A program made the position numbers and the translations under genes. DNA of 64,000 nucleotides, from positions 24,623,167-24,687,166 of the forward strand of contig OY987246.1 in NCBI GenBank assembly GCA_963920765.1, in the 5' to 3' direction. Origin of the DNA: Ulota crispa (lineage: Eukaryota > Streptophyta > Bryopsida > Orthotrichales > Orthotrichaceae). Positions 300 to 62,594 of this stretch are shown here, piece by piece. Under the pieces are notes generated by a model, which saw nothing but the letters and a program-made list of their open reading frames with translations, did no database searches and was not told the origin of the DNA. The first letter of the stretch is position 1; every line of letters begins with the position of its first letter.

Positions 300-682
300 C
301 CCTTAAAGGACCTCTGGGTAGCCGTGGCTTGCCCACATTGTAGGTTCAACAGTACTTTTATTGTATCTTCAATAGCGTTTTGGTTGATGGGCACCAATAG
401 TATTGCTTCTAAAAGTTTCAAAAGTCAATAGTGCATGCTGACCTCATGAAAATTGCAATAAGGGCAGCTTGGGACTCAACACCATGATTTTGAGTTTTCT
501 CACAATTTGGATTACCTAAACATATGAGCATATTTGATAAGATGATTTTTTGCCTTCTATGATGAATCATGTGTTTACGGTCACTTTGGAAAAAAAAACA
601 GATGAAAAACAACTTTTTTTTGTTGTACATAATTTTTTTTCAGGGCCAAAGGACAATAATTGTCCTCGTGGGCGTTTAGGGG
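300..682. mobile_element. TTAA-flanked MITE, short subfamily A
   Basis: TTAA lies at 296-299 and at 683-686. The left end starts CCCTTAAAGGACC and the right end finishes GGCGTTTAGGGG. The interior is shared with the elements at 60761-61114 (opposite orientation) and 62236-62594. No coding capacity. Confidence 0.8.
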
Positions 683-686
683 TTAA

Positions 687-1198
687 CAAAGGTGGTTTTT
701 AAAAGTAAAATTTGCTTGAACTTGTCTCCCAAATTGAGTTCCCATTTTGTTGTATCTAACTTTTGCAAAGTTTCATATTAGGGGGCTTCAAACATCAATT
801 TTTTGTAGTGACTCACGTCAAGATACACCTCAATGAATTCATTAGTGAACATTGGGGTGAGTCACCTTTGGAATTCACTACTAACGTGATTCACATTTGG
901 AGTGCACTTCAAAAACTCACTTTTGTGCGGCTCATCCTTACGGGTATCTCACACACTTGGACCCCTACTTGTGCATAAAACCCTAATCACAAACTCACGG
1001 GTATGTCAAACTTTGGGCATGCAAGTGAACAAAAATAATTCACTAGTGAGCTAGGATCATGTGAGGTGAGAAATTTGTAGACCAAATTTTATGTTTGAAG
1101 CCCCTTGTTATCTCTAAACTTTCAAAAGTGATGTCATGTAGGCACCTCTGAGTGAATTGGGACTTGAGAGATGTTATGAAATAGTAAGTTTTGATTTT
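687..1198. mobile_element. Intergenic stretch with a TIR element at about 781-1104
   Basis: GGGGGCTTCAAACAT at 781 is mirrored by ATGTTTGAAGCCCC ending at 1104, giving a 323-bp element with ends of about 15 bp. It is flanked by TTA on the left and TTG on the right, perhaps a worn PIF/Harbinger-type TTA duplication. The short open frames here show no coding features. Confidence 0.5.
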
Positions 1199-1200
1199 TA

Positions 1201-1620
1201 CTCCCTCTGTCCCAATATAAAGCTCCAAATTAGGCATAGTTCTTGTCCCACTAAAAAGCTCCTTTTTGCTAATTTCAATTGTTGAGAAAGTGTTTGTCAT
1301 GTCCAATGATCTCATGGGGGCAAGTTAAGCAATTAAAGAGCATTCCTCTTCTAACAAGCTTGGCCTTGCCCATATGAGGTACCATTGTTGCTACTAATCT
1401 TTAAATAATCAATAATGAGGAGCTAGCAACAGGTACAAATATGATACTTTTGCATGAAATTTGGGTGTTTAAAAGGCAACATAAAAACTTGAGATTTTAC
1501 AGATATTTGGTAGGTGGTATATTGATTCTAGAATGCATTTATCACTAGCATAATGAATAAAAATATAGTTAATCCCTCATGGAAAAGTTTTTTTGGAGCT
1601 TTATAATGGGACAGAGGGAG
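1201..1620. mobile_element. Stowaway-type (Tc1/mariner) MITE
   Basis: The element begins CTCCCTCTGTCCC and ends GGGACAGAGGGAG, with TA on both sides (1199-1200, 1621-1622). These termini match the CTCCCTCCGTC type known for plant Stowaway MITEs. At 420 bp it is longer than most. The inverted repeat runs inward to about AATATAAAGCTCC / GGAGCTTTATAAT. Confidence 0.85.
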
Positions 1621-1622
1621 TA

Positions 1623-2940
1623 ACTTTCTACTTTACTTCAAACTCTTGTGATTTTAGTGGCACTTGGTACATAGAACATAGTCTAAATTGCCTCTCTAAG
1701 CTAAGGATAAGATATATAACAAGAGTCACATGTAAAATTTAGGGTCTTTGATTGTGTCCTTAATAGAGATTTTTATAGAATACTTTATTCAACAATACCA
1801 TCTATTTCATCTCAATCCTTTTTAGGTTTATCTTAAGTTATTAGTAACGGCATGTTCTCTTCAAATTTATATCAGTTTCTATCAAATTCATAATTTTTTG
1901 ATTTTAGCATCCGTATAGCAAGTCGTATATCAGTCTTTTTTTTATGTTTAACCTCGAGTTAACCTCGAGTTAGAGTACATTGATGTGTTACCACCAAATA
2001 AGCTTTTCAGCACAAAAACAATAACCAATGACTATTTTTAATAATTTTAGAATCATTGCAATAAAGGTTTCATAGGAAGACTTTTAGAAAAGCAAGCATT
2101 ACTCTTTGAATAACTCCTAATATCTTATGGGTTGCCCCTTAATGTTTTGGATCAACACTTTACGCACAAAGTTGAGCCAAATATCAACCTCCAATAGGAA
2201 TGTTCAATTCTTGACTCAGCTCCTTATTCCCCAACTTTAAAAATGCAACCATTGAAGATTGTACATAAAATATAGGCCAAGGTGAATCTTGACACGGTTC
2301 TATGATTTGAACATCACTCCAACTCAGATACTGCTCAATGTTGACATGTAGAAACGTCCATGAAGGGGATCACTTTCAAAGGACAAAGCTATTCTTAGTA
2401 TCAAGGGCACATTGGGATGAACGATGTGCCATATGTACCCATCATAGCGTTTCACGTACCCGTCATAGTGTCTCATGTCTCCACGGAACTTGGATGCGTG
2501 GCAAACGTTTGGAGACTCAAAGCATTGCATGTACCCTAGCATGCATTCAATGCTCACTCACTCAGATGTACTCATGTACACAACTTGTTTTATTTCTCAA
2601 AGTCATTAGAGCAATTTTGGGGCTTCAACCAGGTAATGAGGTGACGAGCAGGGAAATGGTGAAAACAATAGAAAGTTAGCCAAAAGAAATGGTAGAACAA
2701 ATTGGACAATGATTGAATCTATTTGTTAAAAACTGTCCAAACAATTAAAAAAGTGTTCAATTATAGCCTAAAATATAGGCAATATTTGATGCATGCACTC
2801 ATTAAACCAATTGAAAACAAGAAATGTCAATTTTTGCTGGTGAAGTTCAAATCTCCTAGCTTGACCCTAAAAGAGATTGTTGCTTTGTTATTATTTTGTC
2901 ATTTTGTTTATGGAAACATGGAAAGTGATGGAAAAACACT
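1623..2940. other. Intergenic, no gene seen
   Basis: AT-rich sequence with short unsupported open frames (for example 2338-2679). I see no recognised element or RNA gene. Confidence 0.5.
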
Positions 2941-2944
2941 TTAA

Positions 2945-3877
2945 CCCCTAAAGGCCCAGCTATTCCCGGGGATAGTTGAGATTTCAGGCATGAACCTATA
3001 GCTAATGTATTTTTTGTGATTTTTTGAAACTTTCATTGAAAGTGGGGAATTCCAACACCTACCTGGGAATCTAATTTTTTTGTCATTCTGACATTTGACA
3101 AAGAAGTTATACAAGAATTTTTGCTGCCTGACGGAGGGAGGGCAATCCAGGCAGCCCAAAAACTTCTTTAAAAATTGCATTTTCTAAAAATAGCAATCTG
3201 AAATTGGTTCTTTAGATTTTTCTATTTTGTGGGAAGCTTTGAATTGTTCAACTTCAATCAATGAGATGAAAGTTATGAGATGTTTTAGTTTGTGGGTAGT
3301 TATGGATTCTCTACTCTAAAATAAACTTTGAAGTCCTTTATTTTCCACAATTTTTATTATTTTGGAAAAAAAACTAAACCTAAGGAAGTAGATTGTTTAT
3401 CACAACATTATAACCGTTGGAATTCTCATTTTTTCATTTTAATAATTAAATTCTTAACAATTTAGTGATTTGACTCATTCTCAACTTCTTTTTACTTACT
3501 ATTTTCCTCCATGTGTTGTATAATTACAATTGATTTGAAAATTCTCCCACACATACCCAACTTGGTATGCTACATGGAAAAAATATACCTCAACTTTGTG
3601 TAGAGTAATTTTTTTCATGTAAGTGTGGACAAAGACTTTTGAAATTTTTTGGACACCACAAAAAGAAACCTTTTTTTTCCACTTTGGATGTAAATATCTC
3701 CCTCCTCTCCATCTAGAATGACCTGATTTTTTCCCACAAGTACCTCTTCTAGTCTAAAGCAAGATCCTATGGTTGGATTTGCAAAACAAACTTTATTTCC
3801 TACTTTTCTACTCATTTCTCCCAAAGTGGTAGTTAACAATGACTTTCACTGGAGAAAACTGCTTGGAACTTTAGGGG
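2945..3877 (+). mobile_element. TTAA-flanked element, long subfamily B
   Basis: TTAA flanks at 2941-2944 and 3878-3881. Left end CCCCTAAAGGCCCAG, right end CTTTAGGGG. The 933-bp interior is shared with 22231-23186 and 59182-60104 in the same orientation, and with 34802-35717, 51815-52745 and 61119-62059 in the opposite one. Strand is assigned only to record orientation. No transposase frame. Confidence 0.85.
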
Positions 3878-4352
3878 TTAAAGAAATGTAAAAAATATTG
3901 CAAAATACTTCGGTAACTTGTTTGAATAAAGTAGAAACTTTGTTATTACATAGAATGTATAGCCGTTAAGTAACCTCATTTTTCCCTTGTGGAATGTGCA
4001 AAATAATTATATTGTACGCAAACAGCAATTTCACTACATCTAGCATGGATAATTAATAATTTTCACAAAATTTAGCATTAATAATTAATATTTTCACAGC
4101 ATCAGATTTGATCACTTGGAACTTTCTCTAAAACCCTTTATTTTCCTTCGTAAGCTTTTCTTTGTACTCGACAAAACAAATTCTCACTAATTTCACCACC
4201 TACTTTATGGAGAGATTTTCTTGGCAAAACTCTTGTTTACCTATGGTTGACTTCAGTAATAATACACATATCATCAGGATGATGCTATGTCATTTAAGAA
4301 TACACTTGTGAAAACCTTTGTGGAGAAGAATTTTAGAGAAACAAGTTGTTAA

Positions 4353-5303
4353 CTTTTTAAATGCCTAAGGCACCAGAATCTGGTGTCCAAATTTTTTCAA
4401 AAAGCTTTGAAACCTTGTTGAAGTCACAAATTTTATTTTTTTGAGGATTATTTGGAAAAGTTGCGCATTGAAGTTAGCTTCACCATTCAAATTCAACTTC
4501 TTCCATATCTTATTTCATTTGTTTATGGTGAAAGGTTAATTACAAGCATACATTTTCTATCATGAATAGTGTTGTGAATAGTGTTGTGAACAGTGTTGTG
4601 AATAGTGTTGTGAATAGTGTCATGAATAGTGTCACAGAGCCTATGAGAAATTGTCACATTGAAAAGGCGGGCATCAAGTTGAGCAAGAGGTGAAGATTTC
4701 TCTTTCTCTTGGGCACTCCTTTGGACACTAAGGGCCTTTTTTTACAATTTTGACATCTAACAAAATCTAAAAAGTGCTTTTGGGCTGATTCCCCTTGGAA
4801 TATCTTTGTTATACTAATTAGAATCTATTCACTGTTGAAAATTCTTTCATTCATAATGATTTTTGGTCAATAATTGAAGTTGAAAATTTTCTTAGTATTA
4901 GACGGTTGCGTTTCGATAGCTGCGTTGCAAGCTCATTTGTGAAATTGTGGTCATGGATTTGGAAGAAGGGCCATTGGTTTTGAAGTAACAACAATAAACA
5001 CTAGAACACCCTAAGCAGTTGTTTCCCAATTTTGTATCCAAAAGTCGCCAATTTGCATTAGAAGTTTTGGGCAGCTCCAAAAAAAGCAAAAAATTCCATA
5101 CTCATCATCATTCAATCACAAATATCTTAAAATCTGCGTGACCGTTTTGGATTCTTTTGGGTAGTGCCATCTAGAAACCTTGAAGTTCAAGATTAAACGG
5201 TTACAATTTTGTTTTGATGTTTAATAATGATCTTACAAGGACAATTCAAAAACATCAAAACTACCTTTTGAAAACAAGAAAAACACCCTTGGGCATTTAG
5301 AGG
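4353..5303. mobile_element. TTAA-flanked element, subfamily C
   Basis: TTAA at 4349-4352 and 5304-5307. The left end is worn (CTTTTTAAATGCCTAAGGC) but aligns with the left end of the 71-bp element at 9631 through the shared text caccagaat...tggtgt. The right end is GGGCATTTAGAGG. It carries an internal 12-bp tandem array at about 4561-4630. Confidence 0.65.
4561..4636. repeat. 12-bp tandem array inside a TTAA element
   Basis: About six copies of gtgaatagtgtt or variants (gtgaacagtgtt, atgaatagtgtc). It lies within the element at 4353-5303. Confidence 0.85.
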
Positions 5304-9630: not shown

Positions 9631-9701
9631 CCCCTAAATGCCCATGACACTAGAATGTGGTGTTTTTAACACTAGAATTCAGCAGCGTGGGCATTTAGGG
9701 G
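9631..9701. mobile_element. 71-bp TTAA micro-element
   Basis: TTAA at 9627-9630 and 9702-9705. The ends CCCCTAAATGCCCA / TGGGCATTTAGGGG are a perfect 14-bp inverted repeat. It is an internally deleted relative of 4353-5303, about 0.6 kb upstream of the GH31 start codon. Confidence 0.85.
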
Positions 9702-10278: not shown

Positions 10279-13200
10279 ATGGTCGTCATGAGGAGCTTGC
10301 GGTGGATCTTTACGTTAGTAGTACTCCTTGGAGGTTTGCAATGTGAGGCGAGCCGAGGCTATCATTTGCATTCTGTAGTGGAGTATGCGAATCGACAAGG
10401 TTTTGAGGCGAAGTTGGCGATAATTTCGGATTCCGGAAATGACACACTTGGAGCTGACATTGCGCCGCTCAGCTTCGTTGTCAGGTGAGCTTGCTTGATT
10501 CCTAATTCTGTATGTCGTGCTTTAAGTAACTAGCAGCTGTGAAAGAGAGAGAGAGCTCACGGATTTTTTAAATTAAGCCGGTGATCAAGAAACGAATAAA
10601 TTCTGCTCTTAGGCTTTGGTAGCTGCGTGTAAAGATCGGTAGTGCAAGTACATGAGCGTTTAAAAGCTTACATACAGTCTTGTCGCATAATGATTCCTGT
10701 TGTTTGACCTTTCTTGAAACGCGCTCCTCGTTTCTAGCTAAGGCTGCCTAATTTCCATCCTCAAGAGATGGCCTGCACGGATCTCAAATTAACACCGAAG
10801 TTCACTGAGTGTGTGATTTGAAGTTTGAAGTAACACACGCAAAGAGTTGGACGGCATTTACTACGTTGTAATTTCCTGAGATTTATCGAGGTACCGCACA
10901 CTAGTAAAACGTAGCTGTTACATTAGTATCAACTGGAGTACCACATAAGCCTCTCCACGCTTCTTGAGCACAACGACGTTGTGGAATGGTTGAATTTCAA
11001 ACCTTTTCAAGTCCACTTTCTTTGTTGAGTTTTGTGCATATTTCTGCTTGTTTGTTTGTATAGACGTGTTTACGATTTATCCGATTTTATCGAAGTTCAT
11101 GAGAAAGAAAGGTTGATTTTTAAAGGTTTTAAGTGTGGCGAGGTTACTTGTACAAAGCACACTTTGGAGGATAAATGATAGGCATTTACAACCGTCTTTC
11201 ATTTTGCTACCTCGTTGATAGTGTCAGTATTAACATGATGTTTTTGGTGATAATATGAAATTTGTTACTGAATATTTCCATCATGTTAATTGGCTATCAC
11301 TGCTTGCTTTCAGGATTGAGAAGAGTGCGCAATTGCGAGTGTATGTCTCCGACGCGTTAAGTAAAAGATGGGAGGTCCCGCAGAGCATGATTCCCCGGCC
11401 TACAGTGACTTCAAAACTATTGCCGCTCAGAGAGGTTCCCCCGCTGGCGGTCTCATACACCGCGCAGCCCTTTGGGTTTGCCGTGACGAGAGTAGCCACT
11501 GGCGATGTCTTGTTCAACTCCACACCACCCGATGGTGGTGCGTTCAACCCTCTGGTGTTTAAGGACCAGTATATCGAGATCTCCACGCAATTGCCCCGCT
11601 CGTCTGCTCTTTACGGGTTGGGGGAGAGCAGCAAGCCGGAAGGATTGAAGCTCAAGAAGGGCAAGGTTAGTGTTCTTGTTTCATTCAAAATTAGACTTGG
11701 ACTTGGCAAATGAACTCGACTGTAATTTGGAACAATTTTTGTTCATTTTGGCATGAAATCCTACTTGTATTATGAAGCCAGTCGAGAATTTTCTCTCTTC
11801 TTGTCAATTGGCTTTAAGTTGTGCAAATCTGTGAAGGTGTACACGCTCTGGACGACGGACATTTCGGCCTTGTTAGTGGACATCGATCTGTACGGAGCTT
11901 GGCCATTTTATGTGGATGTGCGAGACGGAGGAATATCGCATGGCGTGCTGTTGATGAATAGCAATGGCATGGAGGTCACCTACGGCAATACATCTCTCAC
12001 ATTCAAAATAATTGGCGGCGTCTTGGATTTCTACTTCTTCCCTGGTCCCACTCCATTGGATGTTGTGGATCAATATACCCAGCTTGTTGGCAGGCCTGCT
12101 GCGCAACCCTATTGGGCGCTCGGTGAGTGAATCATGCTTGAGCTTGGGATCCATGATCTTTTAGAAAATTTCTAGAACCAACTAGGGCGTCATAGGTTCT
12201 GTACTCTATAGTCATTTAGTCCCTAAGACTTTGTTTTTCTTGCATTCATTGTTGCACAATCACTCCCTATTACACAAAAACTACTATTGCTCAACCTTGC
12301 GAGAACTTTGATTTTCCATTGTGAGTAATGCAATACGTGATACATGATGCTGAACTAGTCGGGTATTAGTGGCGACCAAATTCACAAAGTTTGTTCTCTA
12401 GTGTTGGTTTTAGCAATTTTCCTTCCTTGTAGCCCTTAACTCACGTGATTGTGTTGATAAATTTAGGCTTCCATCAATGCCGATGGGGATACCGAAACAT
12501 AACCATTGTGAAGTCGGTGGTGGAGAATTTCAAGAAGGCGAAGATCCCGTTGGACACAATGTGGAATGACATTGACTACTCGGACAGGTATCTGGATTTC
12601 ACTCACGACGAAGAGAGGTTTCCATTGCGTGAATGGCGAGCCTTTGTTGATGAGCTGCACGCCAACGACCAGCACTACGTCATCCTTGTTGATCCGGGTA
12701 AGAAACACTTCTGTGTTCTAAAATAATTCAATAATCACTTTTGCAGATTTTGAACTGGTCTTGTCGCATTTTTTTTGCAAAAATTAGGTTTGAAATTAAT
12801 TAACACCTTTTCCGCATCAGGCATTGGCTCTGCGTACAGCGATTACGAAACCTACACACGAGGATTGGAGCAAGACATCTACCTAAAGAATGCCGAGGGT
12901 GAGCCGTACATGGGGCAAGTGTGGCCAGGGCCGGTGGTGTACCCGGATTTCTTGAACCCAAAGGCGACCGCGTGGTGGACAAACGAGGTGCAGCTCTTCC
13001 ACGACCAGTTGCCCTTTGATGGAATGTGGATCGACATGAATGAAGTATCCAACTTCTGCACCGGAACGCACTGCAGTTGGAATGGCACCATTCTCGGCGG
13101 GGCGACGGCCTGCTACCTGCAATGCTCCAATACCACCACCAAGTTCGATAATCCCTTATTCAAGATCAATCACTTTAATAATTATTCGCCTCTAGGGGTC

Positions 13201-14385
13201 CTGACGGCCGCCATGACCGTCCAGCACTATGATGGCACTCTGGAGTATGACGCGCACAGCTTGTATGGCCTGGCGGAGTCCATTGCCACTAAGGTGGCTC
13301 TCACCGTTGTGCGGAAGAAGAGGCCATTCCTGCTGTCTCGCTCAACGTACGTCGGATCGGGTGCACACACAGCTCACTGGACAGGCGACAACAAGGCAAC
13401 CTACGCCGACCTCGCCTATTCCATCGTCACAGTGATGGACTCAGGCATAGCTGGGATTCCAATGGTGGGAGCCGACATCTGCGGGTTCTACGACATGGCT
13501 CCCGATGAGATGTGCAGCCGATGGATTCAAACGGGCGCGTTTCACCCCTTCTCACGGGCTCACTCCGTCAGAGACAACGCAGGCAAGGAGCTCTACTTGT
13601 TTCCCAAGACCACGGTCTCGGCGAGGAAAGCCCTCGGATTAAAATACCAGCTGCTGCCATACTACTACACGTTGAACTACGAGGCGCACACCAAGGGCTA
13701 CCCCATGGTTAGGCCTCTCTTCTTTGCGTTCCCGGCCGACCCCAACACATTGGAGATTTCGTACCAATTCCTAGTCGGAAATCACATTCTCGTGTCTCCC
13801 GTGATCACCGCGAATGCAACCTCGGTGGAGGCATACTTCCCCGCAGGCACCTGGTACAACATGTACGACCATTCCCAAATTGTCAGCACCGGTGGAAACT
13901 TCACTCTGCCAGCACCGTGGGACACCATCAACTTGCACGTCCACGCAGGGGCCATCATTCCCATGCAAGAGAGCGCTTTGACATCCGCTGCGGTGCGCAA
14001 GACGCCCTTCACTCTGGTGGTTGCTCTTCCCGGCAACTCCGTGCTGAGCTCTGCATCAGGGTATGTGTTTCTCGACAACGGAGAGGAGATTGACATGATC
14101 CTGCACGCAAACCAGTCTAGTTATGTGAGCTTCAACGCCAGGGTGGCAGGCAACGGCGGTACTCTCAAATCACATGTTTTGCACGGGGAATATGCTTTGA
14201 AGGAAGGTTGGATTGTGGATCATGTTGTGGTCTTGGGCGTCGGCTCTGCTCCTAGTTCTGTACATGTGAAGCAGAGTCTGCACAAGCCACTGGTGAAAGT
14301 CTCGCACAACAATCATACGCTGGAGCTCTCAGATCTGGGGCTTCTCATGGGGGAGGATTTTGAGCTAACTTGGACTTCCGTGTAA
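10279..14385 (+). CDS. GH31 alpha-glucosidase / alpha-xylosidase, secreted
   Basis: Hydrolyses terminal alpha-glucosyl or alpha-xylosyl residues; plant members act in the cell wall or vacuole on xyloglucan or malto-oligosaccharides. Exons read from GT-AG sites and phase: 10279-10484, 11314-11665, 11837-12122, 12467-12697, 12821-14385, giving 879 residues, near the usual 900. A signal peptide is visible (MVVMRSLRWIFTLVVLLGG). The N-terminal beta domain is followed by the (beta/alpha)8 barrel: MWNDIDY at residues 313-319, the nucleophile D430 in GMWIDMNEVSNF, and the acid/base D548 in HWTGDN. Both catalytic aspartates are intact, and C-terminal beta domains follow. ATG 10279 was chosen because it opens the signal peptide. 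The first intron is the longest (829 bp). It converges on the ENTH gene. The sequence does not separate glucosidase from xylosidase. Confidence 0.93.
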
Positions 14386-21981: not shown

Positions 21982-23340
21982 AAATGCAATTGAAGTTTTA
22001 TTATTTTGCATCCTTCATATTTATTTCTTACTAGCAATCCTAATCAAGCACACCAAAAATCAACTTCAAAAAACCAAAACCCAATTTTTGGTGAATTGTT
22101 TGTGTAACAACCATGGTTTTACAAGAAAATTGATTGAAAAACATTGGTAATGACTTTTTGAGATTTGATTGTATGGGTATGTAGGAAACATCCATATGCA
22201 TTTATTTCATGCTAAAAAAGAACCCCTTAATCCCTAAATGCCCAAGTGGTCCCTCAAGGGCCAAGTGGAGTTTTGAGCATGTACCTACATCTAAACTAAT
22301 TTATGTGATTTTCTGAAACTTTTATGGAATACAAGGATTTAAATATCTACGTTGGCATCTAATTCTATCTTCATTCCAACATTTATTGAAGAAGTTATGC
22401 ATGAATAACAGAAAAACATGGGAGAATCAAGCAGCCCAAATAAAATTGCTTTTTTTATAAATAAAAAATTGAAATTGGTTCTTTGGATTTTTATTTAAGT
22501 GGGAAGCTTTGAATCATTCAATTCCTATAGATGAGATAAAAGTTATGAGAAGTTTTAGTTTGCAAGTAGGTATGGGACTCCCAAAGCTCCATTTCTTTTG
22601 CCCCTTGTAAAATTTGGTGCTTTACTTTTTTGTGATTTATGTATTTTTTTTTTACTTTTTTTTCCCATGTAGTAGACTAAGATTCCTTGGTTCTCACCAT
22701 TTGGATCAAAATAATTCATATCTCTCAATTTTACATAAATCCTCCAATTTTGCCTAGTGTATATGCAAATTTCATGACCTTCAGGCATTGCAAGATTTTA
22801 CAAAGTATGATTCACACCTCGGATTCATTTGGAAATTCACACACACATGCCTAACTTGGTCTTCTACATGGGAAAAGAAAACCTCAATTTTGCATAGAGC
22901 AATTTTTTTGATATAGGAGAGGAGGTCAAAGGCTTTTGAAATTTTTGGGCAGCACATTAAAAAAATAAAAAAAATAAAAATCTTTTTTTCACTTTAGATG
23001 TCAAAATCTCATTCCTCTACATCTAGAATGAAATGATTTTTTTCCCACAAGTACCTCCCATAGTCTTGGGCAAGATCTTACGGTTGGATTTATGAAAAAA
23101 CTTTTTTTCCTACCATTCTACTCATTCCCCCAAAAGTGGCAGTTTTGAGTGACTTTCACAAAAAAAAGGGCTTGGGCTTTTAGGGGTTAAGTAACAAAAT
23201 TTTGATCTACAAAAAATTCAATGCTACCTCTAATGTGTCCAAATTTTGTAAAATGTATATCTTTATGTTTTAACTAGCTTTTCAATAAGAAACATAACAC
23301 CATGTTCAAAAGTACAAACTTAATCACAAAAAATGTCTAG
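21982..23340. repeat. Third copy of the 55501/56360 repeat arm, split by a TTAA element
   Basis: 21982-22226 and 23191-23340 together match one arm of the long palindrome at 55501-56360 (for example ttttgagatttgatt and ttaactagcttttca). The join falls exactly at the TTAA element at 22231-23186. Confidence 0.7.
22231..23186 (+). mobile_element. TTAA-flanked element, long subfamily B
   Basis: TTAA at 22227-22230 and 23187-23190. Ends TCCCTAAATGCCC / GGCTTTTAGGGG. The 956 bp are homologous throughout to 2945-3877. Confidence 0.85.
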
Positions 23341-28311: not shown

Positions 28312-30758
28312 TGCTGCTTCGCCAGGGCAGAACAGGGAGACGCGAAGCGCCGCCGAGAGACGAGGTAGCAGTACTGTCGGAGGCCTCGGATTCTTCGGTC
28401 TCGCTCGTGAGCACAATCGACGCAGCTCCGTGATGGCCATGGCCGCTGTCGACGCTGTGCCGTCGCAGCAAATCCACAATGCCATCGTGGTCCAGCATCT
28501 GCGACCGGCACCCCAGCAGCTCCTCGTACTGCTTCTGCAGCTCCAGAATCTCCCTCGACCGCCGCGAGTTCTCCTCCAGCAGCCTCAAGCTGGCGTTGAT
28601 CACCTGATTTTCGCTCATCCCACATCAAAAAAACGAAACCGGAACTGCAAATCGGACAAATTTTGGAGGCACATTTCAAAAAAAAAAATTGTGGAAAATC
28701 CGATCGATCACCTTCTGCATGATGTGCCGCAAGTGGCGCCCGTCGTCGCCGTCGTCCACTTTGGCGAGCTCCTGGCTGTGGTGCTGCAGCACGCTCTCGA
28801 GAATCTCCGGCTGGCTCAGGAACGCGGGGTTGTTGAGAGCGCGCTCGTTCACCGCGGGGCCGAGCTTGCAGTGGTCGATGAGACTCCAGAGCTGCTGTTG
28901 CTCCTCGTGGGAGCAGTCCGGAATGCTGGTTAGAAGCTTTTCCACGGCGCCGTAGACAGTGTCGTGGGAGGAGCGTGATGACGCAGGGAAGGCTCGGAAG
29001 AGGTTGAGGAAAATCTCCGGGGAGATGGAGCCCTCGCCGGCGTAGAAGTAGAGGAATCGGTCGACGTCGCCGGCGGTCTCCTCCAGGGATTGCTCCGTGT
29101 GCACGTCGTCGCCCATGCTGCTGTAGTAGTCTACTAACGACATGAGCGTTTCCGGGGAGAATTTGTAGTCGCGGAGGTACTCGTCCATTTCTTCCAGGCT
29201 TTCGCCGATCTTCTCTTCCAGGATCGCTTTCACCCCCATCAACCTTTCCTGCATGCACACACATCTCTTGCGTCACCTCGGGATGTCGCACTGGCCTTAA
29301 CCACTAAGGCAGAATCCTCTATCGCCAGAAAATATGCTGATGAGTTACAAAACTACAGGTTTTACATGGATTTCATATGGGGTTACCTTGATGTAGGACT
29401 GGCTTTGGTCCTCCACATTGGCACCTTCAGAAGAACGTCGATCCGTCTTGCATATACCAAAGAATTACATGATTAGTGTTCAGCACCGACCGAATGGAAT
29501 CGCCATTCACAGATTGACGATTGAAAAGGGAGGGAGGGAGGCATGAGTACCGAGAGAGGCGGGTCGTCCAAAAGAGGCAACAACATGTCGGCATGCTCCA
29601 GCAAGCTGCACCAGTACTGCGAAGAGAGCTCCATCCAAGGCCGCTTGGCCGGCGCACTCTTCAACAGCATTCTCGACAAGCACAAGATGACCCAACATCT
29701 GGAGCGATCATTGCTACACTCGTCCTCCATTACGCTCTCCAGCCAGCTGCGCACACTCCGCCCTTGCCGGCACTTAAGGCTCAGGTTCACGTCCGAGTCC
29801 ACCAGGGTGTTGATAATCTCCGCCGCGTGCCGATCGGGCAAGGAGCACACCGCTACGAGAAGCTCCGTCAAGCTCTGGCACGCCGACGACGAGGGCGGTT
29901 TGAGCGGAGCGGCCGGCGTGAGGGGCCCTGAGATGTACGTCGAGGGCGCCGAGACGTGCTTGATTTCGGTGAACGCTTTGACGCACGCCGTGACGACCAC
30001 CTTGTAGCACCGCAACTCCACGTACTCGTCCACCGGAGCGTCCATGCGGTGGTAGTGTTGCAGGAAGCCCGTGCACTGGCGCCAGTGCGCGAAGATGTGC
30101 GCGTGCATGAACCGTTTCGTGGTTTCCGTGATCTCGTCCATGTCGAGAAACTCCGCCGCCGCGTGCACCAGCACGACGTTGTACAATGTGAAGCTGGGTT
30201 TCAGGAGGTAGCACATGTCCGCGGCTATGGCGAACCCTTCCACTCCACCTAAGCCATTGCGACTCAACACACGTTCAGGCAAAATCTTGGGCACACAAAT
30301 GCAAGCTCCTCTCTTCTTTTCTCTCATCAACATTCCCGGTCTATAGTTGGATTTCTAGTAGTTCCTCATGCTACTTCAATGTAGCTTCAATGTAGCATCA
30401 GCCATGAATTTATCGCTATGCCATAAACTGCAGCATTTGAGATCATATTGAATACAGGAACACTTCGAACTGGAAAGCAATCTAAAAACTGGTTCTCTCA
30501 GTTGATGAACGTAAGCCGGAATAAGTTAGTACCTGGAAGGTCATGGACTGTGACGATGTTGCCACGTGAGGAGGGGTCATGAGCTTGCGCACCCCCGCTT
30601 GAGCTACTGGGCAGATTCCGGAAGTAGCCGCTGGCGTTTCGCAAGGGCAGCATGTGCAGACGAAACTCTTCGCCGTTCACTCTCACCACCACGTCGCTGT
30701 AGTCGCCCGTTTTGCGCACTCGTTGCAGCCATCCGTTGAGCCCATCTTTCTTGGCCAT
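28292..30758 (-). CDS. BTB/POZ-NPH3 family protein
   Basis: NPH3/RPT2-like proteins are plant-specific plasma-membrane-linked CUL3 adaptor candidates acting with phototropins or in auxin transport. Exons on - : 30758-30533, 30248-29551, 29446-29387, 29248-28712, 28603-28292; phases join exactly, giving 610 residues, the usual family length. The BTB domain is at about residues 18-105 (DYSDVVVRVNGEEFRLHMLP, HDLPGGVEGFAIAADMCY). The NPH3 domain follows: ESVMEDECSNDRSRCWVILC, TLMSLVDYYSSMG, and FRAFPASSRSSHDTVYGAVE, the conserved HD-x-x-Y block. The C-terminus has a predicted coiled coil (LLEENSRRSREILELQKQYE) and a Ser-rich tail. An in-frame TAG upstream favours ATG 30758. Coding exons are GC-rich against an AT-rich surround. 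Which subfamily is not resolved. Confidence 0.93.
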
Positions 30759-31581: not shown

Positions 31582-31812
31582 CCCCTGAGCGCCCAGGCCA
31601 TATTCACTCAAATTCATACCCTTGTGTACTTAATCCATTACCTAAATAGAGTCAAATAGCTTGAATTTATTTTGAGTGGTAGTAGACACATGCCTAAAGG
31701 TACATGAAAAATACAAATCCTTTGACTTTACCATTAAGAAGAAGAGAAGAGACAAACGTGGACATTTTTCAAAACTGAGCGCCCCATTTTGAGGTCCTGG
31801 GGCACTCAGGGG
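31582..31812. mobile_element. TTAA-flanked MITE, subfamily D
   Basis: TTAA at 31578-31581 and 31813-31816. Ends CCCCTGAGCGCCCAGG / CCTGGGGCACTCAGGGG. 231 bp. The tips differ from CCCCTAAAGG at the same places as in the other subfamilies. Confidence 0.8.
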
Positions 31813-34801: not shown

Positions 34802-35717
34802 CACCTAAAGGACAAGGCCCTTTTCTTTGTGAAAAGCACTAAAAATTGCCACTTTTGGGGGATGAAAGGAGTGGTGATTTTTGTATTTTTTGAAATCTAA
34901 TTGTAAGATCTTGCTCTTGACAGTATGAGGTACTTGGGGAAAAAATGAGCTTATTCCAAATGAAAGGGAGTGAGATATTTACATGTGAAGTGAAGGAAAA
35001 AAATTGTAACTCCCAAAAATTTCAGAAGCCGTTGACCACTCCTATATCAAAAAAATTGCTCTATGCAAAGTTAAGATTTTTTTTTACCATATAGAAGACC
35101 AAGCTAGGTATGTGTGGGGGAATTTTCAAATCAACTGGAACTATACAACACATGGGAAAAAATAGTAAGTAAAAAAAGTAGAGAATGAGTCAAAACACTA
35201 AATTGTTGAGAATTTATTTACTAAAATGAAAAATGCAAATCTCAACGGTTATAATGTTGTGATAAACAATCTACATCCTTTGGTTTTGATTTTTTTCCAA
35301 AATAATGAAAATTGAGTCAAATAAAGGACTTCAAAGTTTAGTTTAGAGTAGACAATCCATAATTGCCTGCAAACAAAAATTCCTCATAATGTTCATGTCA
35401 TTGATTGAAATTGAATGATTCAAAACTTCCCACATATAAAAAAATAATAAAAGAACCACTTCCAAATTTTTACTTTAAAAAAATGTGAATTTCAAAGAAG
35501 TTTGGGTTGCCCGGACTAGCAGTCCTCCCCAAATTTTCATGAATTCTTACAAAACTTCTTTGTCAAATGTCATAATGAAGAAAAAATAAATACCGGCATA
35601 GATCTTTCAATTCCCCACCTTCAATAAAAGTTTAAAAAAATCACACAAAGTAGTTTAACTATAGATACATGCCCAAAATCCCATTTTTTCCCGGAAGGAA
35701 CAATGGTCCTTTAGGGG
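34802..35717 (-). mobile_element. TTAA-flanked element, long subfamily B, reversed
   Basis: TTAA at 34798-34801; right flank TTCA (one change). Ends CACCTAAAGGACAAGG / TGGTCCTTTAGGGG. The 916 bp are homologous to 2945-3877 in the opposite orientation. Confidence 0.8.
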
Positions 35718-49662: not shown

Positions 49663-49886
49663 CCCCTAAAGAGCCTTGGGCTTTGGAGATACAATACCAA
49701 ATACAATTGCAATTAACATTCAAAAGTTTGAATTAGTTAGAAATTAAGTGTTACAACCATATATATTGGAGGGTTGTATGATGGTGGGTGCATAATTTTT
49801 TTCTAAAAAGCCCTTAGAGCAGCTCAAATACATCTGTACATACAACCATACATACAGCCGCAAAAGGCTCTTGGGCCGTTTAGGGG
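49663..49886. mobile_element. TTAA-flanked MITE, subfamily E
   Basis: TTAA at 49659-49662 and 49887-49890. Ends CCCCTAAAGAGCCTTGGG / GGGCCGTTTAGGGG. 224 bp. Confidence 0.8.
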
Positions 49887-51814: not shown

Positions 51815-52745
51815 CCCCTAAAGGCCCAAGCCCTTTATTCTTTGAAAGTCACTTAGAACTGCCACTTTTGGGGGAATGAGTAGAAAGGTAGGAAAACATG
51901 TATTTTTGAAAAATCCAACCGTAAGATCTTGCCCTAAACTATGACCGGTACTTGTGAAAAAAAAACCAGCTCATTCTTAACGTAAATGAGTGAGATATTC
52001 ACATTTGAAGTCAAGAAAAATGTTTTTTCCCTACTGCCAAAAAAATTCAGAAGCCTTTGACCTCTCCTATATCAAAAAGTTTGCTCTACTCAAAGTTGAA
52101 GTTTAATTTTCCCATGTAGAAGACCAAGTTAGGTAAGTGTGGGAGAATTTTCAAATGAATTGGAGGTGTGATACATACTTTGTAAAATCTTGCAATGCCG
52201 AAAGGCCATGAAATTTGCATATACATTAGGCAAACTTGGAGGGTTTATGTAAAATTGAGAAATCTGAATAACTTTGATCCAAATGGTGAAAACCAAGGAA
52301 TCTTAGTTTACTACAACTTGGAAAAAAAGAGTCAAAAAAAAGTCAAGGACCAAATTTTACAAGGGGCAAAAGGAATGGAGGTTTGGGAATCCCATACCTA
52401 CCCAAAAACCAAAACTTCTCACTCATATATCAAAAATTGAATGATTCAAAGCTTCCCACATTTGTAAAAATCTAAAGAATCAATTTCAGATTTTTAATTT
52501 TGAAAAACAAAATTTTTAAAGAAGTTTTTTGGGCTACCCGGACTGCCTACATTCCCCTGTTGTTCAAAAATTCATGCATAACTTCTTCAATAAATGTCAA
52601 AATGAAGAAAAAATTAGATGTGCACTTACATCTTTGAATTCCCCACAATCCTCAAAAGTTTCAAAAAATTATAAAAACAAGTTTAGTCATAGGTACATGC
52701 CCAAGGTCCATTTGTCCCCGAAGGAGACACTTGGGCCTTTAGGAG
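51815..52745 (-). mobile_element. TTAA-flanked element, long subfamily B, reversed
   Basis: TTAA at 51811-51814. Left end CCCCTAAAGGCCCAAG, right end CTTGGGCCTTTAGGAG with the right flank lost. 931 bp, homologous to 2945-3877 in the opposite orientation. The short open frame at 52195-52440 is element sequence. Confidence 0.8.
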
Positions 52746-52828: not shown

Positions 52829-53282
52829 ATGTTCTAAAATAAGTGGTGAAAAATTTGAAAGTAAATGCCATCCACTTATAGGGATTTCCTTTTACTTAGT
52901 GCCTTGATGATTTTGCCTAAATTCCAAAAGGTTGAATGCCAAAGTTAGTACTTGACTTGTTATGAATCTCAATTACCACTTTTGACACGCTCGTAAAAAC
53001 TTCAAAATAAGCATTATGCACGGGCACGTCTTTTTTAGATTTTTGTGTAGAATTTGTATTAAATTTAGTGATTGTTGTGGCTTTTATTATTTGCAACATA
53101 AGTTAAAGATCAGCTGAAAAATGTTGGATTTTTTCTAGTTTCTCTACACTCTAGAAAATCCTTTGTACATATGTTGTCCTTCTAGAACCACCGCGCAACT
53201 ATTACGTGGAGTTGGCTAGTAAGGATGCAAGAAATGAATTTGTGCAGGTTTGTCATAGATTTGTTGAAGCAATTGATTGCTT

Positions 53283-53506
53283 GAAAGTTGCTTTATAGGG
53301 CATAGTATATACGTTGTTGTATAATTGGCATTGCTACCAATAAGAAATTTTAATCTGGGATCTCAAGCAGCTCACTATAACTGCTTTGATCTATTCTTCA
53401 ACTTCTTTGTTGATCTCAAATGTGGTAAATGTGTGATTCTGTTCCAAATACAAGAAATACACCTCACATTGTATTGATCCCAACAACATGCTTAGACGTT
53501 TAGGGA
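53283..53506. mobile_element. Worn relative of the 58226-58459 TTAA element
   Basis: Diverged homology to 58226-58459 (accaataagaaattttaat; caaatacaagaaatacacc). Right end GACGTTTAGGGA followed by TTCA. Left end not clear. Confidence 0.5.
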
Positions 53507-53653: not shown

Positions 53654-54290
53654 CCCCTAAAGGACCAAGGCCTTTTTGAGCTTCTTGGATTTTTCATGAA
53701 ACTGAACAATCAACCAACTTTTTCATGAATGTCATCTAGTTTTATTGATTGTAACTATACAAATCTAAACTAGACATGTTGAAAATTACATGGAAAAATA
53801 AAACACAATAATATCATTTATAGTTTGAAAGATTAGAATGTTTGAACATGAGTTTGTTAAAATTGCAAAAGTGACTTGAAATTTTCCAATCTTCATTTCA
53901 CATGTGAAATCTCAAAATTTGATCACCAAAAAAATATGAAGTTTAAGGTCATTACACGTCTAACTTTAATAAACTTATGGCTTTCAAACTCTTACAAATT
54001 TTTTAAATGAATTTCTAATGTGAATTGTTGTCCGAGCTGTAATGTATGTGAGGCTCATTTTCAAGATTTTCTAACACCAAAAAACTCAAGATTGCAATGG
54101 ACGCCCTTGTACAAATTCTTGAGTAAAAAAGCCATGAGTATTCATTTTCAAAATCAAATTTTTGATGTTGAAAAAAAATTTCAAAACAAACTTGTATTGA
54201 AATTTTTACTAAAAATAGTAATTTGATAAGGCTTTATTCATCTTCAAAGTTTTGTAAAGATCCAAATTGGGTGCCTTGGGCATTTATGGG
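53654..54290. mobile_element. TTAA-flanked element, subfamily F
   Basis: TTAA at 53650-53653 and 54291-54294. Ends CCCCTAAAGGACCAAGGC / GCCTTGGGCATTTATGGG. 637 bp, interior not shared with the other subfamilies by eye. Confidence 0.75.
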
Positions 54291-54475: not shown

Positions 54476-55239
54476 CCCTTAAGTGTCTTTGCTAAGAAAA
54501 CTTGGCATAACACCAACATAAAATCTTCAGCACATTCTTCTATTTTTTGGAAAGTTGGACAAGTAATCACATAATCTAAACTAGTCATTCGATACCCAAC
54601 AATAAATCAAATGTGCAAAATCAATCTGATTTCAAATCCAAGTAAATTTGCAAAATCCCACAATTGAGAATCCAATTTTTGTCGCTTTGAGGAGCAGTTT
54701 ACAATATGAATTTTGGACTTTGATGTAATTTTTTCCCAAAAAAGAGATTTGTCTAATGGCTGATTCCATGAGGTTAAGTTTAGATATACTTGATGGAAAA
54801 AAAAAACTCCACAAATGGAAAAAAAAAACTCAAAAAATATGGTCACTCAATGTTATTGGATTCCACTAGCTCTTTACTTAGAGTTACAAAACCCTTGTTC
54901 AAATCAAGAAAAAAAAAGTGACACATCACCAAGTTTCTCCCTTTTACAATACAAGACGTGGGAGCACCCATTCCATCTGCTCTCTTTCCCTTTGATTGCC
55001 CAAAGACATTCTTCTCCTAGTTGTTGAAAAAATAAAATATTCTTCATATTCTTGATAGAATCTAGAGCAAAGTAGTCTCTTCAAGGAACAAGAAGCTGAT
55101 TAGTTTTTTTTTGTTGAATTAGCAACTCCATTTGCACTTGAGTGGCAAACCAAAATTTGAGCTCAAAATGCCTCTTTTGTCTACTTTCACACCTCCAAGC
55201 ACCCCTGTGGCCATATTGGGCTCTTTGGACGCTTAGGGA
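54476..55239. mobile_element. TTAA-flanked element, subfamily G
   Basis: TTAA at 54472-54475; right flank TTTA. Ends CCCTTAAGTGTC / GGACGCTTAGGG. 764 bp. Its right end abuts the TA-flanked element that starts at 55243. Confidence 0.6.
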
Positions 55240-58221: not shown

Positions 58222-58225
58222 TTAA

Positions 58226-58459
58226 CCCTTAAAGGACTGAGCTACTATAATACATAGTATGCATGTTGCTATATAACTGGTATTTGCTACCAACAAAAAG
58301 TTTTAATTTGGAATCTTACCTACCTCAGTAGAACACCATCGATTTATATTCTAATTTCTTTGTAGAATTCAAATGTAATAAAGGTGTGAATGCACTCCAA
58401 ATACAAGAAAAATACTCCGTACTGTAGTGGTCGCAAAGGGTTGTTTGGTTGTTTAAGGG
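58226..58459. mobile_element. TTAA-flanked MITE, subfamily H
   Basis: TTAA at 58222-58225 and 58460-58463. Ends CCCTTAAAGGACTG / GGTTGTTTAAGGG. 234 bp. A worn relative is at 53283-53506. Confidence 0.75.
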
Positions 58460-58463
58460 TTAA

Positions 58464-58999
58464 TTACTTCTTTAGCTAGTATCTAAACTATTTTAATCAT
58501 GCAAGATTTTTTAACCCTTCTAATTATGCGCTATTTTTTGTAGAAATCAAAATCTACAATATGTTCTAGTAAGGATTGTCTAAAATTGATTTACTTCTTG
58601 GTTTGAATTTTTTTTCTTCACAATCTCCTCTATGCTCTTTTCCACATGATCGATCGCAAGACATCACAACATTAGCCCATCTTTATTTATATTTTTTTAA
58701 ATTTAAAAATAAATATACCTCTTAGCCAATTTTTGACAAAATTGGAATTAGTCTAAAATATACACCATATAAAAGCACGCCACTCAACTATTGAATAATG
58801 TGAAACATTTCACCAAAGATGACATCCACATATTGAAAATAGTTGTAACTTTGCAATTCAAATACTAAATACTAACAAATAAAAAACATCATCCAAAATA
58901 CCACCATGTTAATCCATGTTCACAATGTGAAAACAAATACTTCCAACAAATGTGGAATAGCAATAAAATTACCATACACTTGAGGCACTTGTATATCTA
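58464..58999. other. Intergenic, no gene seen
   Basis: AT-rich spacer. Confidence 0.5.
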
Positions 59000-60179
59000 A
59001 CACCATATTTGTTAAATTGGGAAAAAGAGTACATTTTGGGACTTCTAAAGGTTTTAGGTGATCTAAAAATCAAGCTCGCATCGTATTTTTGGTACACATG
59101 CCTTCACATGAGAGGAGGAATTTGCAACGGAAAAAATCTTAGTGGCTTAGACTGAAACCGATCCCTTCAAATCTGGTTTAACCCCTAAAGGACCAATGTC
59201 CCCTCGGGGGACAAATGGGATTTTGGGCATGTACTTATGGCTAAACTACTCTGCGTGATTTTTTGAAAATTTTATTGAAGGTGGGAAATTCAAAGATCTA
59301 CATGGGCATCTAATTTTGTCTTCATTCCAACATTTGATGAAAATGTTATGCATGAATTTATGAAAAATGGTGCTCCTCGGGCAGCCAAAAACTTCTTTAA
59401 AATTTTCATTTTTTTCAAATAAAAATCTGAAATAGGTTCTTTAGACTTATATAGACGCGGGGAGCTTTGAATCATTCAATTTTGATAGATGATTTGAAAG
59501 TTACGAGGGGTTTTTGTTTGCGGGTAGTTCTAGATTCTCTACTCTAAAATAAACTTTGAAGTCCTTCATTTTACTCCATTTTCAATATTTTGAAAAAAAA
59601 ACAAAACCAAAGGATGTAAATTGTTTATCACAACATTATAACCATTGGGATTTGCCTTTTTCATTTATATAATTAAATTCTTAACAATTTAGTGTTTTGA
59701 CTCATTCTCTACTTCTTTTTACTTACTATTTTTTCCCATGTGTTGTATGGGTTCCAATTGATTTGAAAATTCTCCCACACATACCTAACTTGGTCTCCTA
59801 CATGGGAAAAATAAACCTCAACTTTGTGTAGAGTAATTTTTTTGCTCTAAGAGTGGTCAAAGCCTTCTGAAATTTTTGGGCAGTAGCAAAAAGAAACTCA
59901 TTTCCGCAATTCAGATGTAAGTATCTCACTCATTTTTGTGTAGATTGAGCTGAATTTTTTACTACATGTACCTCATGTAGTTTATTGTAAGATCTTATGG
60001 TTGAATTCTTGTAAAAAACTTTTTTTCTTACCATTGTACTTGCTTCCCCAAAAGTGGCAGTTTTTTGTGTTTTTCACAGAAAAAATGGCTTGGTCCTTTA
60101 GGGGTTAAGGTAACTTTTTGGATTAAAGGTGGAGTACAAAACAGTACCTCCATTTTTCCCAATTTAACAAATATGGTGT
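59000..60179. mobile_element. ACACCATATT-family MITE filled by a TTAA element
   Basis: The ends ACACCATATTTGTTAAATTG / CAATTTAACAAATATGGTGT form a perfect inverted repeat with TA on both sides. Without the insert it is about 253 bp, matching 8788-9042 and 18799-19052. Confidence 0.85.
59182..60104 (+). mobile_element. TTAA-flanked element, long subfamily B, with readable empty site
   Basis: TTAA at 59178-59181 and 60105-60108. Ends CCCCTAAAGGACCAATG / TTGGTCCTTTAGGGG. 923 bp. The unfilled version of its target is at 8968-8971. Confidence 0.9.
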
Positions 60180-60181
60180 TA

Positions 60182-60756
60182 TCTGTCTTGCATTGAAGGT
60201 CAAATTTGGCAACTTGTTTGTATTGAATATAAATTCTCTCTTATATAAACGCTTATGTTGCACCATATAAGTGCTTATATGGTTTGACAAAACAACATGT
60301 ACTTTTTAACTAAATTCAAAATATCCAGAATAATAAATGATAAAAAAAATTTGGAATTACTTGCAAATCATTGAGACATCTCCCAATATTTTGCTTATGT
60401 TATACCCAAAAGATTGAGAGATCTATGCCCCTCAACATCAAAAAATCTTCCCAAATTTTACAAACATAGTTTGAAATTGTTCAAATTGTCCAAAATTATG
60501 CAGTATGGCACTAAACACCTCGAAAGGTGTTTATATGATCATATACATATTTTTTTGAGCAAAGACTTATGCCTAGCCATATTGTTCACACACCCAAATT
60601 CCTTATCTCTCTACCAAGCCATCCTTAACCCTTTATCCTTGAACCAAGGGACGCCGCAAAATTGCCATTGCAACCCAACAGCTAGTTGCTTCAACTCCAT
60701 GTCTGATAGTGTATTTGGTGTCAATATCATGTTTTATTTTTATTTTTAATTTTTTG
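60182..60756. other. Intergenic, no gene seen
   Basis: AT-rich. The open frame at 60414-60749 has no recognised domain. Confidence 0.45.
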
Positions 60757-60760
60757 TGAA

Positions 60761-61114
60761 CCCCTAACTGGTAACGTCCTCTAGCTCTGAAAAAAGATTA
60801 TGTTAAAAAAAAAAAAAAAAAAGTGGTTTTCATCTTTTCTTTTTTTTCAAAAGTGATCATAAACACATGGTCAATGGAAGGTAAAAAATTTCCTCATCAA
60901 ATGCATTCATATTTTTAGGTAACTCAAATTGTGATAAGATTTAGAAACAAAGTGTTAGGTCCCAAGCTGCCCTTCTTGCACTTTTCATGAGGGCACCATG
61001 TACTGTTGACTCTTGCAATTTTAAAAAATTCCATTATAATTGCTAGGCACTAAGATGAACAATGTAAAGTATTGTAATCGGGCTGGTCACGGTGACCAGC
61101 CCAACATTTAAGGG
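60761..61114. mobile_element. TTAA-flanked MITE, short subfamily A, reversed
   Basis: Left flank TGAA (60757-60760), right flank TTAA (61115-61118). Ends CCCCTAACTGG / CAACATTTAAGGG. Inverse of 300-682 and 62236-62594 (shared text caagctgcccttcttgcac). It holds an 18-base A run (about 60806-60823) and a perfect palindrome GGGCTGGTCAC-G-GTGACCAGCCC at 61080-61102. Confidence 0.7.
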
Positions 61115-61118
61115 TTAA

Positions 61119-62059
61119 CCCCTGAAGGACCAAGCCCTTTTTTTTGCTAAAATCACTAGAAAATGTCACTTCTAGGGGATGAGTAAGAAGGTAGATTTCT
61201 TTTTTATTTTTGGAAATACAATAGCATGATCTTGCCTTAGACTAGAAGGGGTACTTATAGGAAAAAAATCAAGTCATTCTAGATGGAGAGGAGGGAGGTA
61301 TTTACATCTGAAGTGAAGGGAAAAGGTTATTTTTCCTTGCTACAAGTAACAAGTAAATTTCAAAAGCCTTCAACCACTTTAACAGGAAAAAAATTGCTCT
61401 ACTCAAAGTTGTGCTTTTATTTTTTCATGTAGGAGATCAAGTTAGGTACATGTGGGAGGATTTTTAAATTGATTGGAATAATACAACACGTGCAAAAAAT
61501 TAGTAAATAAAAAGATATAGAGAATGAGTCAAAACACTAAATTGTTAAAGATTTAATTATTGAGATGAAAAATTCAAATCCCAACAGTTATAATGTTGTG
61601 ATAAACAATCTACTTCCTTTGCTTTAATTCTTTTTCCCAAGATATTGAAAATCGAGTAAAACAAAGGACTTCAAAATTTATTTTAGAATAAAGAATCCAT
61701 AACTGCCTGCAAACAAAAACTCCTCATAACTTTCATCTCATTGATTGAAATTGAATGAATCAAAGCTTCCCACATATGAAAAAAATCTAAAGAACCAATT
61801 TCAAATTTCTATTTTTAGAAAACACAAAATTTTAAGAAGTTTTTGGGTTGCCCAGAGTGCCCTCCCTCCCCCGGGCAGCAGAAATTCTTGCATAACTTCT
61901 TTGTCAAATGTCAAAATGAAGGAAAAATAAGATGCCCACGTAGGTCTTTGAAATCCCCATCTTCCATAAAAGTTTCAAAAAATCATACAAAGTAGTTTAA
62001 CCATAGATGTATGCCCAAAATTGCATTTGTCCCCCAAAGGACCAATGGTCCTTTAGGGG
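61119..62059 (-). mobile_element. TTAA-flanked element, long subfamily B, reversed
   Basis: TTAA at 61115-61118, shared with the element before it, and at 62060-62063. Ends CCCCTGAAGGACCAAG / TGGTCCTTTAGGGG. 941 bp. Confidence 0.85.
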
Positions 62060-62235
62060 TTAAATGACACAAACAAGGGGCTTGAACTTAGCAATAGTTG
62101 CATGGGATAACTTCCATAACCATATTTCAAAAATATGAAACCATATAAGCCATAAATCTCTCCATGTCAAAGTTTGAAACCCCGTGAGATGACCCTACTT
62201 ATCATGGTGAAAGCACCCCTTTGCACAAATTTTAA

Positions 62236-62594
62236 CCCTTAAAGGTCGGATAGATCACTGTAGCTTGCCCTGCTTGTAGCATTCTACAGTGTCTTGCACA
62301 TGGGCACAAGTAGTATTGCTTCAAAAAGTTGGAAAAGTCAACAGTGCATGGTGCCCTCATTAAAATTGCAAGAAGGGCAGCTTGGGAGCTAACACCATGT
62401 TTCTGAATCTTATCACAATTTGGGTTACAAAAAAAATGAATGCATCTTAGGAGATAATTCTTTGTCTTTCATGATGGATCATGTGTTTATGGTCACTTTT
62501 GAAAAAAAATCATATGAAAAACGATTTTTTTCTAAATCACAGAATCTTTTTTCAAAGCCAAAGGATGTTTTTTGTCCTCCTCAACATTTAGGGG
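62236..62594. mobile_element. TTAA-flanked MITE, short subfamily A
   Basis: TTAA at 62232-62235 and 62595-62598. Ends CCCTTAAAGGTCGG / CAACATTTAGGGG. 359 bp, same orientation as 300-682. Confidence 0.8.

Follow-up and report, generated by a model that had tools for sequence, protein, structure and literature searches.

PiggyBac-like miniature elements with TTAA flanks, and related transposase-bearing elements, in the Ulota crispa genome

A 64-kb stretch of the Ulota crispa genome (C5:24,623,167-24,687,166; hereafter the window, taken from an assembly of 274.8 Mb in 157 contigs) carries sixteen short elements with TTAA flanks and CCCCTRARNG-like tips. These elements are very probably non-autonomous, internally deleted miniature inverted-repeat transposable elements (MITEs) of the piggyBac superfamily, whose partner transposases are encoded on longer elements elsewhere in the genome. 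Their assignment to the superfamily is near certain. The piggyBac reading is based on the tips, on the TTAA flanks and on empty sites with a single TTAA, on transposase genes in the same genome, on the bracketing of such genes by the same tips, and on homology between both ends of MITEs and those of transposase-bearing elements.

Terminal repeats and TTAA target

Sixteen TTAA-flanked elements had been listed in a first-pass annotation of the window, and all were borne out at their positions, with the motif far more frequent than expected from shuffled sequence. Sites matching TTAACCCCTRARNG with at most two mismatches numbered 34, versus a mean of 4.96 and a maximum of 12 in 100 shuffles, and sites matching CCCCTRARNG exactly, with no flank required, numbered 16, versus a mean of 1.03 and a maximum of 4. 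The flanks, read out for each element, were TTAA on both sides in 12 of 16 and altered on one side in the other four, as annotated (34802, TTCA; 51815 as first drawn, TTCA; 54476, TTTA; 60761, TGAA; elements are named by their start positions). The element at 51815 had been drawn as a single unit reaching 53506, and this was in error. Homology to its family covers only ~51815-52745, where the right tip is decayed and TTAA is absent, and the tip at 53506 is part of a relic related to the 58226 element. With 51815 trimmed, the sixteen elements total 9,808 bp, or 15.3% of the window, in agreement with the earlier estimate of about 15%. A motif common to all tips had also been proposed, but not all conform to it: several are off by 1-2 bases, and 4353 has a left tip (CTTTTTAAAT) that lacks the motif and is backed by homology to a longer element (L033).

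Grouping by BLASTN (E <= 1e-5) identified a ~930-bp family A with six members (2945, 22231, 34802, 51815, 59182, and 61119) and a ~360-bp family B with three (300, 60761, and 62236); a ~234-bp family comprises 58226 and the relic ending at 53506. Elements 4353, 9631, 31582, 49663, 53654, and 54476 had no BLASTN match to others among the sixteen. None of the seven window open reading frames (ORFs) of at least 150 aa overlaps an element.

The bases that precede the tips conform to a TTAA target. In 264 kb of DNA that included the window, 34 of 40 CCCCTRARNG sites collected without regard to flank were preceded by TTAA, and at flank-blind sites of this type all four TTAA positions were constrained and position -5 was free. 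Genome-wide, the 16-position tip CCCCTAAAGGNCCAAG had 5,668 matches (reversed controls, 0), of which 4,960 followed TAA and 4,746 followed TTAA. The outer T is thus present in 95.7% of the TAA-preceded class (4,746/4,960), and a target requirement of only TA or TWA is thereby ruled out for these tips. The TA-only requirement that would have spoken for another superfamily was thus not seen genome-wide in this class.

These data bear on whether the elements could be Tc1/mariner (Stowaway-like, TA) or PIF/Harbinger MITEs with terminal inverted repeats (TIRs) that start near TTAA by coincidence. PIF/Harbinger elements target the three-base TWA. Both superfamilies are among the usual ones for plant MITEs (PMC12550479), but the constraint on four bases, with -5 free, makes such an origin extremely improbable. 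For the CCCCTAAAGG tip class it was rejected, as the flanks correspond neither to TA alone nor to TWA.

Across 88 ends taken from paired elements, the terminal repeat consensus, CCCCTAAAGGMCCAAG, holds information to approximately position 16; selection of the ends drew on positions -4 to 10, and positions 11-16 and those from -5 outward are independent of it. The first three bases were C in 81, 84, and 82 of these 88 ends, which had been selected by motif with at most two mismatches. The elements therefore combine TTAA duplication with short TIRs (~16 bp) that start with CCC, as piggyBac elements do. Kolobok elements also duplicate TTAA, and their ends are 5'-RR / YY-3' (PMC9587614), whereas the ends here are 5'-CCCC / GGGG-3' and do not begin with 5'-RR. 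Moreover, the two transposase-bearing elements best linked to the MITEs encode PF13843 (the genome was not searched for Kolobok). A Kolobok origin is accordingly extremely improbable and was rejected as contradicted by the tips.

Empty sites were sought with tip pairs separated by under 1,500 bp; of 66 such pairs, flanks of 80 bp could be taken for 65. Flanks were joined around one TTAA and searched against the fetched DNA, which yielded 33 junction-spanning alignments for 14 elements. Five alignments (five elements) were dropped because they run into another element. Among the remaining 28, one intact TTAA was present in 13, representing 6 of 9 elements. The clearest cases were 59182 (TTAA in six of eight empty copies) and an L010 element, for which empty sites in 4353 itself, L033, and L012 all had TTAA (3/3).

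Transposase genes and their links to the MITEs

A six-frame search of the genome with PF13843 (piggyBac DDE_Tnp_1_7; 528 candidates, best 116 scored) returned at least 120 matches, every one of which exceeded the curated cut-off (best E 1.3e-73), and PF13843 was found in none of 14 control genomes. Eight transposase loci were fetched, mostly the best-scoring or least broken together with the locus closest to the window; four of the eight were then extended. Tips bracket the transposase at four of the eight (L033, L037+L034, L038+L032, and L039+L035). The frame at L030 matches the solved transposases of Trichoplusia ni piggyBac (E 3.6e-20) and piggyBat (1.4e-16). Catalytic D positions were judged from motifs, PDB alignments, and D268/D346/D447 as given in PMC7351741; all three are visible by eye in the L029, L031, L032, L033, and L034 frames. 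A cysteine-rich C-terminus is likewise visible by eye in L029, L031, L032, and L033, and is degenerate or not seen in L034, L030, and L035.

An expectation of the first-pass annotation, that a longer relative with the same tips would encode DDE_Tnp_1_7, was realized twice with homology at both ends. At L033, exact tips at 71 and 5808 enclose a transposase in a 5.74-kb element, and the ends of the 4353-5303 element match its ends (right, 551 bp, 84%; left, 133 bp, 70%). At L037+L034, ~110 kb from the window, exact tips enclose an 8.8-kb transposase element whose two ends are matched by all six members of family A, including 59182 (left, 175 bp, 89%; right, 356 bp, 76%) and 2945 (left, 176 bp, 76%; right, 355 bp, 74%). 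Two more loci are tip-bracketed. The exact tips of L038+L032 are ~8.0 kb apart; at its right end 54-55 bp align to family A (80-84%), and its left end resembles family A by eye. The tips of L039+L035 are ~7.0 kb apart (CCCCTGAGCG and CCCTTGAGCG, one with a mismatch), and its left end is matched by the right end of 31582 (35 bp, 91%).

Within the L033 and L037+L034 elements, four of seven ORFs of at least 110 aa match PF13843 above the cut-off, one of them also with a sub-cut-off match to DUF5958, and the other three have no match to a Pfam family. An encoded non-piggyBac transposase would have argued for a different origin; PF13843 was the only above-cut-off Pfam match in these two elements (other transposase families were not searched genome-wide). 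Sola3 also uses TTAA. The target, and nothing else, favors Sola3 or another TTAA-using superfamily, and the homology of both ends to PF13843-bearing elements contradicts this for family A and 4353 (no Sola3 transposase search was made), leaving such an origin very improbable.

Several observations weigh against the piggyBac reading. Tips are so common (~1 exact tip per 15 kb per orientation, from 34 TTAA-preceded sites in 264 kb) that bracketing alone is weak, and no convincing tip pair was found at L029, L030, or L036 in the ~2.5 kb read on each side. The ends of L031 were ambiguous even after extension to 14 kb and are left undecided because other elements are nested there (a 717-bp foldback built from family-A left ends, and a 53654-type element). 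By eye, L030 is without the third catalytic D and L035 without the second, and most transposase frames are broken, with stops in 47 of the first 50 matches listed. Lastly, 15 of the 28 usable empty-site alignments have the four bases changed or partly deleted.

Since bracketing alone is weak, the argument depends on L033 and L034, where the ends are homologous to MITEs as well. It could be argued that transposase genes lie between separate MITE copies by coincidence, because tips are dense and the L031 and L032 regions show many of them around one transposase. However, in L033 and L034 one outer end corresponds to the left end and the other to the right end of a single MITE family, correctly ordered and oriented, and the homology breaks off within the MITE rather than at a second tip. 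On this both-end homology, chance bracketing was rejected as highly unlikely.

In the 50 first-listed PF13843 frames, stops comprised 104 TAG, 57 TGA, and 25 TAA, a bias of the kind expected from C-to-T change in CAG and CGA. The window elements are depleted in CpG (observed/expected 0.12-0.44). Together, the stop bias and CpG depletion fit elements that are methylated and silenced.

The proposal that subfamilies with the same tips share a transposase encoded elsewhere is upheld with respect to transposases elsewhere in the genome, but not with respect to a single enzyme. The compared frames are ~33-55% identical in best-match lists, indicating several piggyBac lineages rather than one. Best matches, taken from match lists without a tree, group L032/L033/L034, L031/L035/L029, and L030 with metagenomic proteins. 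Tips of the CCCCTAAA type go with L032, L033, and L034 (three bracketed cases) and CCCCTGAG tips with L035. Because tip classes pair with different lineages, the shared motif is more likely a product of superfamily-wide recognition, together with several partner enzymes, than of a single transposase.

Proteins similar to the L030 frame numbered 19 in public assemblies (P0001-P0019), with PF13843, at 29-71% identity over 22-90% of the query. No relative was found in viral contigs scanned with one of them (P0002).

Further features were observed at the transposase loci. A ~400-bp near-palindromic repeat that aligns in both orientations occurs at L033:1073-1498 and at L037+L034:3063-3493 and 4576-4961, and may add to the length of the transposase-bearing elements. 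L033:4099-5349 (-) holds an open frame of 416 aa that lies upstream of the transposase in the same orientation; the frame is Q/E/K-rich and has no Pfam match. L036:948-4141 (around C1:1180709-1181995) holds a piggyBac transposase-like gene with three open ORFs and apparent introns; the matched domain is free of stops and the stretch read has no convincing tip pair, and we regard the gene, from its sequence, as a candidate domesticated gene. A two-part match at C8:19570986-19572215 in the PF13843 listing resembles this case.

Abundance and catalog of elements

The exact 14-base tip TTAACCCCTAAAGG occurs 15,411 times genome-wide (7,719 forward and 7,692 reverse), versus 1 + 0 for a reversed-pattern control. 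Coverage was estimated from 20 stretches of 10 kb (200 kb) at round-number coordinates on seven contigs, using tip pairs less than 1,100 bp apart. Perfect tips covered 0.12% (1 pair), tips with at most one mismatch each 5.3% (15 pairs; reversed control, 0), and tips with at most two mismatches each 10.6% (30 pairs; reversed control, 2 pairs, 0.26%). Homology to the window elements extended over 15,806 of the 200,000 bp sampled.

With 59182 as a genome query, the best 40 of 10,261 first-look candidates were scored; copies among them comprised 59182 itself and 39 others at 90-93% identity, near full length, on ten contigs (C1-C10), and one further match was partial (78%). That no copy closer than 93% was found among the best candidates scored suggests an old burst of this subfamily rather than present activity.

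Consistent with MITEs, the elements are short, have no large ORF, are present in many copies, and have ends in common with a coding element, the last in full for family A and 4353 and in part for 31582. For those without a linked transposase (family B, 49663, 53654, 54476, 58226, and 9631; Table 1), we infer the same origin.

Table 1. Elements and relics in the window (window coordinates)
Feature	Position	Strand	Flanks and relatives
Family B MITE, 383 bp	300..682	+ (arbitrary within family B)	TTAA both sides; 81% to 62236 over 270 bp
Family A MITE, 933 bp	2945..3877	+ (as L034 transposase)	TTAA both sides
Deletion derivative of the L033 element, 951 bp	4353..5303	+ (as L033 transposase)	TTAA both sides; left tip decayed
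Near-palindromic element, 71 bp	9631..9701	.	TTAA both sides; relative in L040 (71 bp, 84.5%)
Family A MITE, 956 bp	22231..23186	+	TTAA both sides; five related empty sites, one TTAA intact
Element with CCCCTGAG tips, 231 bp	31582..31812	.	TTAA both sides
Family A MITE, 916 bp	34802..35717	-	Right flank TTCA
224-bp element	49663..49886	.	TTAA both sides; two matches in 200 kb sampled elsewhere, best 83%
Family A MITE, ~931 bp	51815..52745	-	Left TTAA; right tip and flank decayed
Relic of the 58226 family	53274..53506	.	Only right tip (TCCCTAAACG, flank TTCA) recognizable; start approximate, from alignment
637-bp element	53654..54290	.	TTAA both sides; full-length relative in L041 (74% over 647 bp)
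764-bp element, least supported	54476..55239	.	TTAA left, TTTA right; one 70% match in 200 kb sampled elsewhere
234-bp element	58226..58459	.	TTAA both sides; full-length relative in L038 (83%)
Family A MITE, 923 bp	59182..60104	+	TTAA both sides; one TTAA in 6/8 empty-site alignments
Family B MITE, 354 bp	60761..61114	-	Left flank TGAA; right TTAA common with 61119 element
Family A MITE, 941 bp	61119..62059	-	TTAA both sides; back to back with 60761-61114
Family B MITE, 359 bp	62236..62594	+	TTAA both sides

Some elements stand back to back with a single common TTAA (window 61105-61128; L039:1219-1242 and 1897-1920), as if one had targeted the TTAA flanking another. The 717-bp foldback at L040:2534-3250 comprises two inverted family-A left ends, and pair lengths of 716, 716, 718, and 723 bp among the tip pairs hint at a subfamily of such foldbacks. 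Elsewhere in the window, a 27-bp tandem repeat of ~8 copies (2-234) adjoins the element at 300, and ORFs match a GH31 glycosidase (12775-14385) and the NPH3 family (28676-29260; PF03000, E 8.4e-10). NPH3 is specific to plants, and its presence fits a plant genome.

Proposed mechanism and place among known elements

In the mechanism that we propose, a piggyBac-type DDD transposase from the longer elements would recognize the ~16-bp terminal inverted repeat CCCCTAAAGGMCCAAG and adjoining end sequence, excise the element, and insert it at TTAA, which would be duplicated in the process. MITEs would be mobilized in trans by such enzymes. By analogy with T. ni piggyBac (PMC7351741, PMC8086355), a transposase dimer may cut the tips via hairpin intermediates, leaving TTAA overhangs; the ends would then join a new TTAA and the donor TTAA would be restored, such that excision would leave no footprint. 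Several piggyBac lineages would each have had their own deletion derivatives, which were probably amplified to thousands of copies and only later decayed.

The elements resemble members of the piggyBac superfamily (T. ni piggyBac, piggyBat, and animal elements) in their use of TTAA, their short CCC-starting TIRs, and their DDD PF13843 transposase with a C-terminal cysteine-rich domain. They differ from known piggyBac elements in that the host is a plant and the MITE copy number is very high. In animals, piggyBac-derived MITEs are short deletion derivatives with the ends of a longer relative. Those described here are likewise short derivatives with common ends, but their host is a plant, and a single genome there has several transposase lineages. 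Stowaway and Tourist MITEs of plants are short and AT-rich, lack a large ORF, and reach thousands of copies, with TA or TWA targets and other transposases. The Ulota elements share the first four of these properties and differ in TTAA and in the piggyBac transposase. Tips that start with CCC, together with TTAA, are usual in animal piggyBac elements as described in PMC10813416. The bracketed transposase elements, at 5.7-8.8 kb, are longer than T. ni piggyBac at 2,472 bp (PMC10140906).

Recent accounts of plant transposons disagree on whether piggyBac belongs among them. Piggybac-like elements in plants are mentioned in general terms in passages of PMC8086355, PMC10140906, and PMC10813416, a fern repeat table gives 1,230 PiggyBac copies (122 kb; PMC6890710), and a 2024 review counts PiggyBac among the plant superfamilies in its treatment of them (PMC10794571). 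In contrast, piggyBac is absent from the main text of a 2022 review of land-plant elements (PMC9033089), and the main text of a 2025 MITE survey spanning 207 plant genomes (PMC12550479) names neither piggyBac nor TTAA. We found no description of piggyBac MITEs in a land plant in the open-licence literature, as judged by title and listing. What is known, therefore, is the superfamily; the surprise is the abundance of piggyBac in a plant.

A broader and more tentative possibility, which we consider somewhat doubtful, is that piggyBac is a leading DNA transposon superfamily in this plant lineage. Several ancient piggyBac lineages would have persisted there alongside one another and given rise to MITEs in the tens of thousands (~5-10% of the genome). 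They would also have left multi-exon open transposase genes (such as C1:1180709-1181995 and C8:19570986-19572215) that may be domesticated. With piggyBac-type MITEs at ~5-10% of the sampled DNA, a major genome component would be open to being overlooked or misclassified when annotation is built around five or six plant superfamilies. These elements would also allow TTAA-specific transposition to be examined in a plant where it occurs naturally, and the question of how piggyBac came into plants and has lasted there to be addressed.

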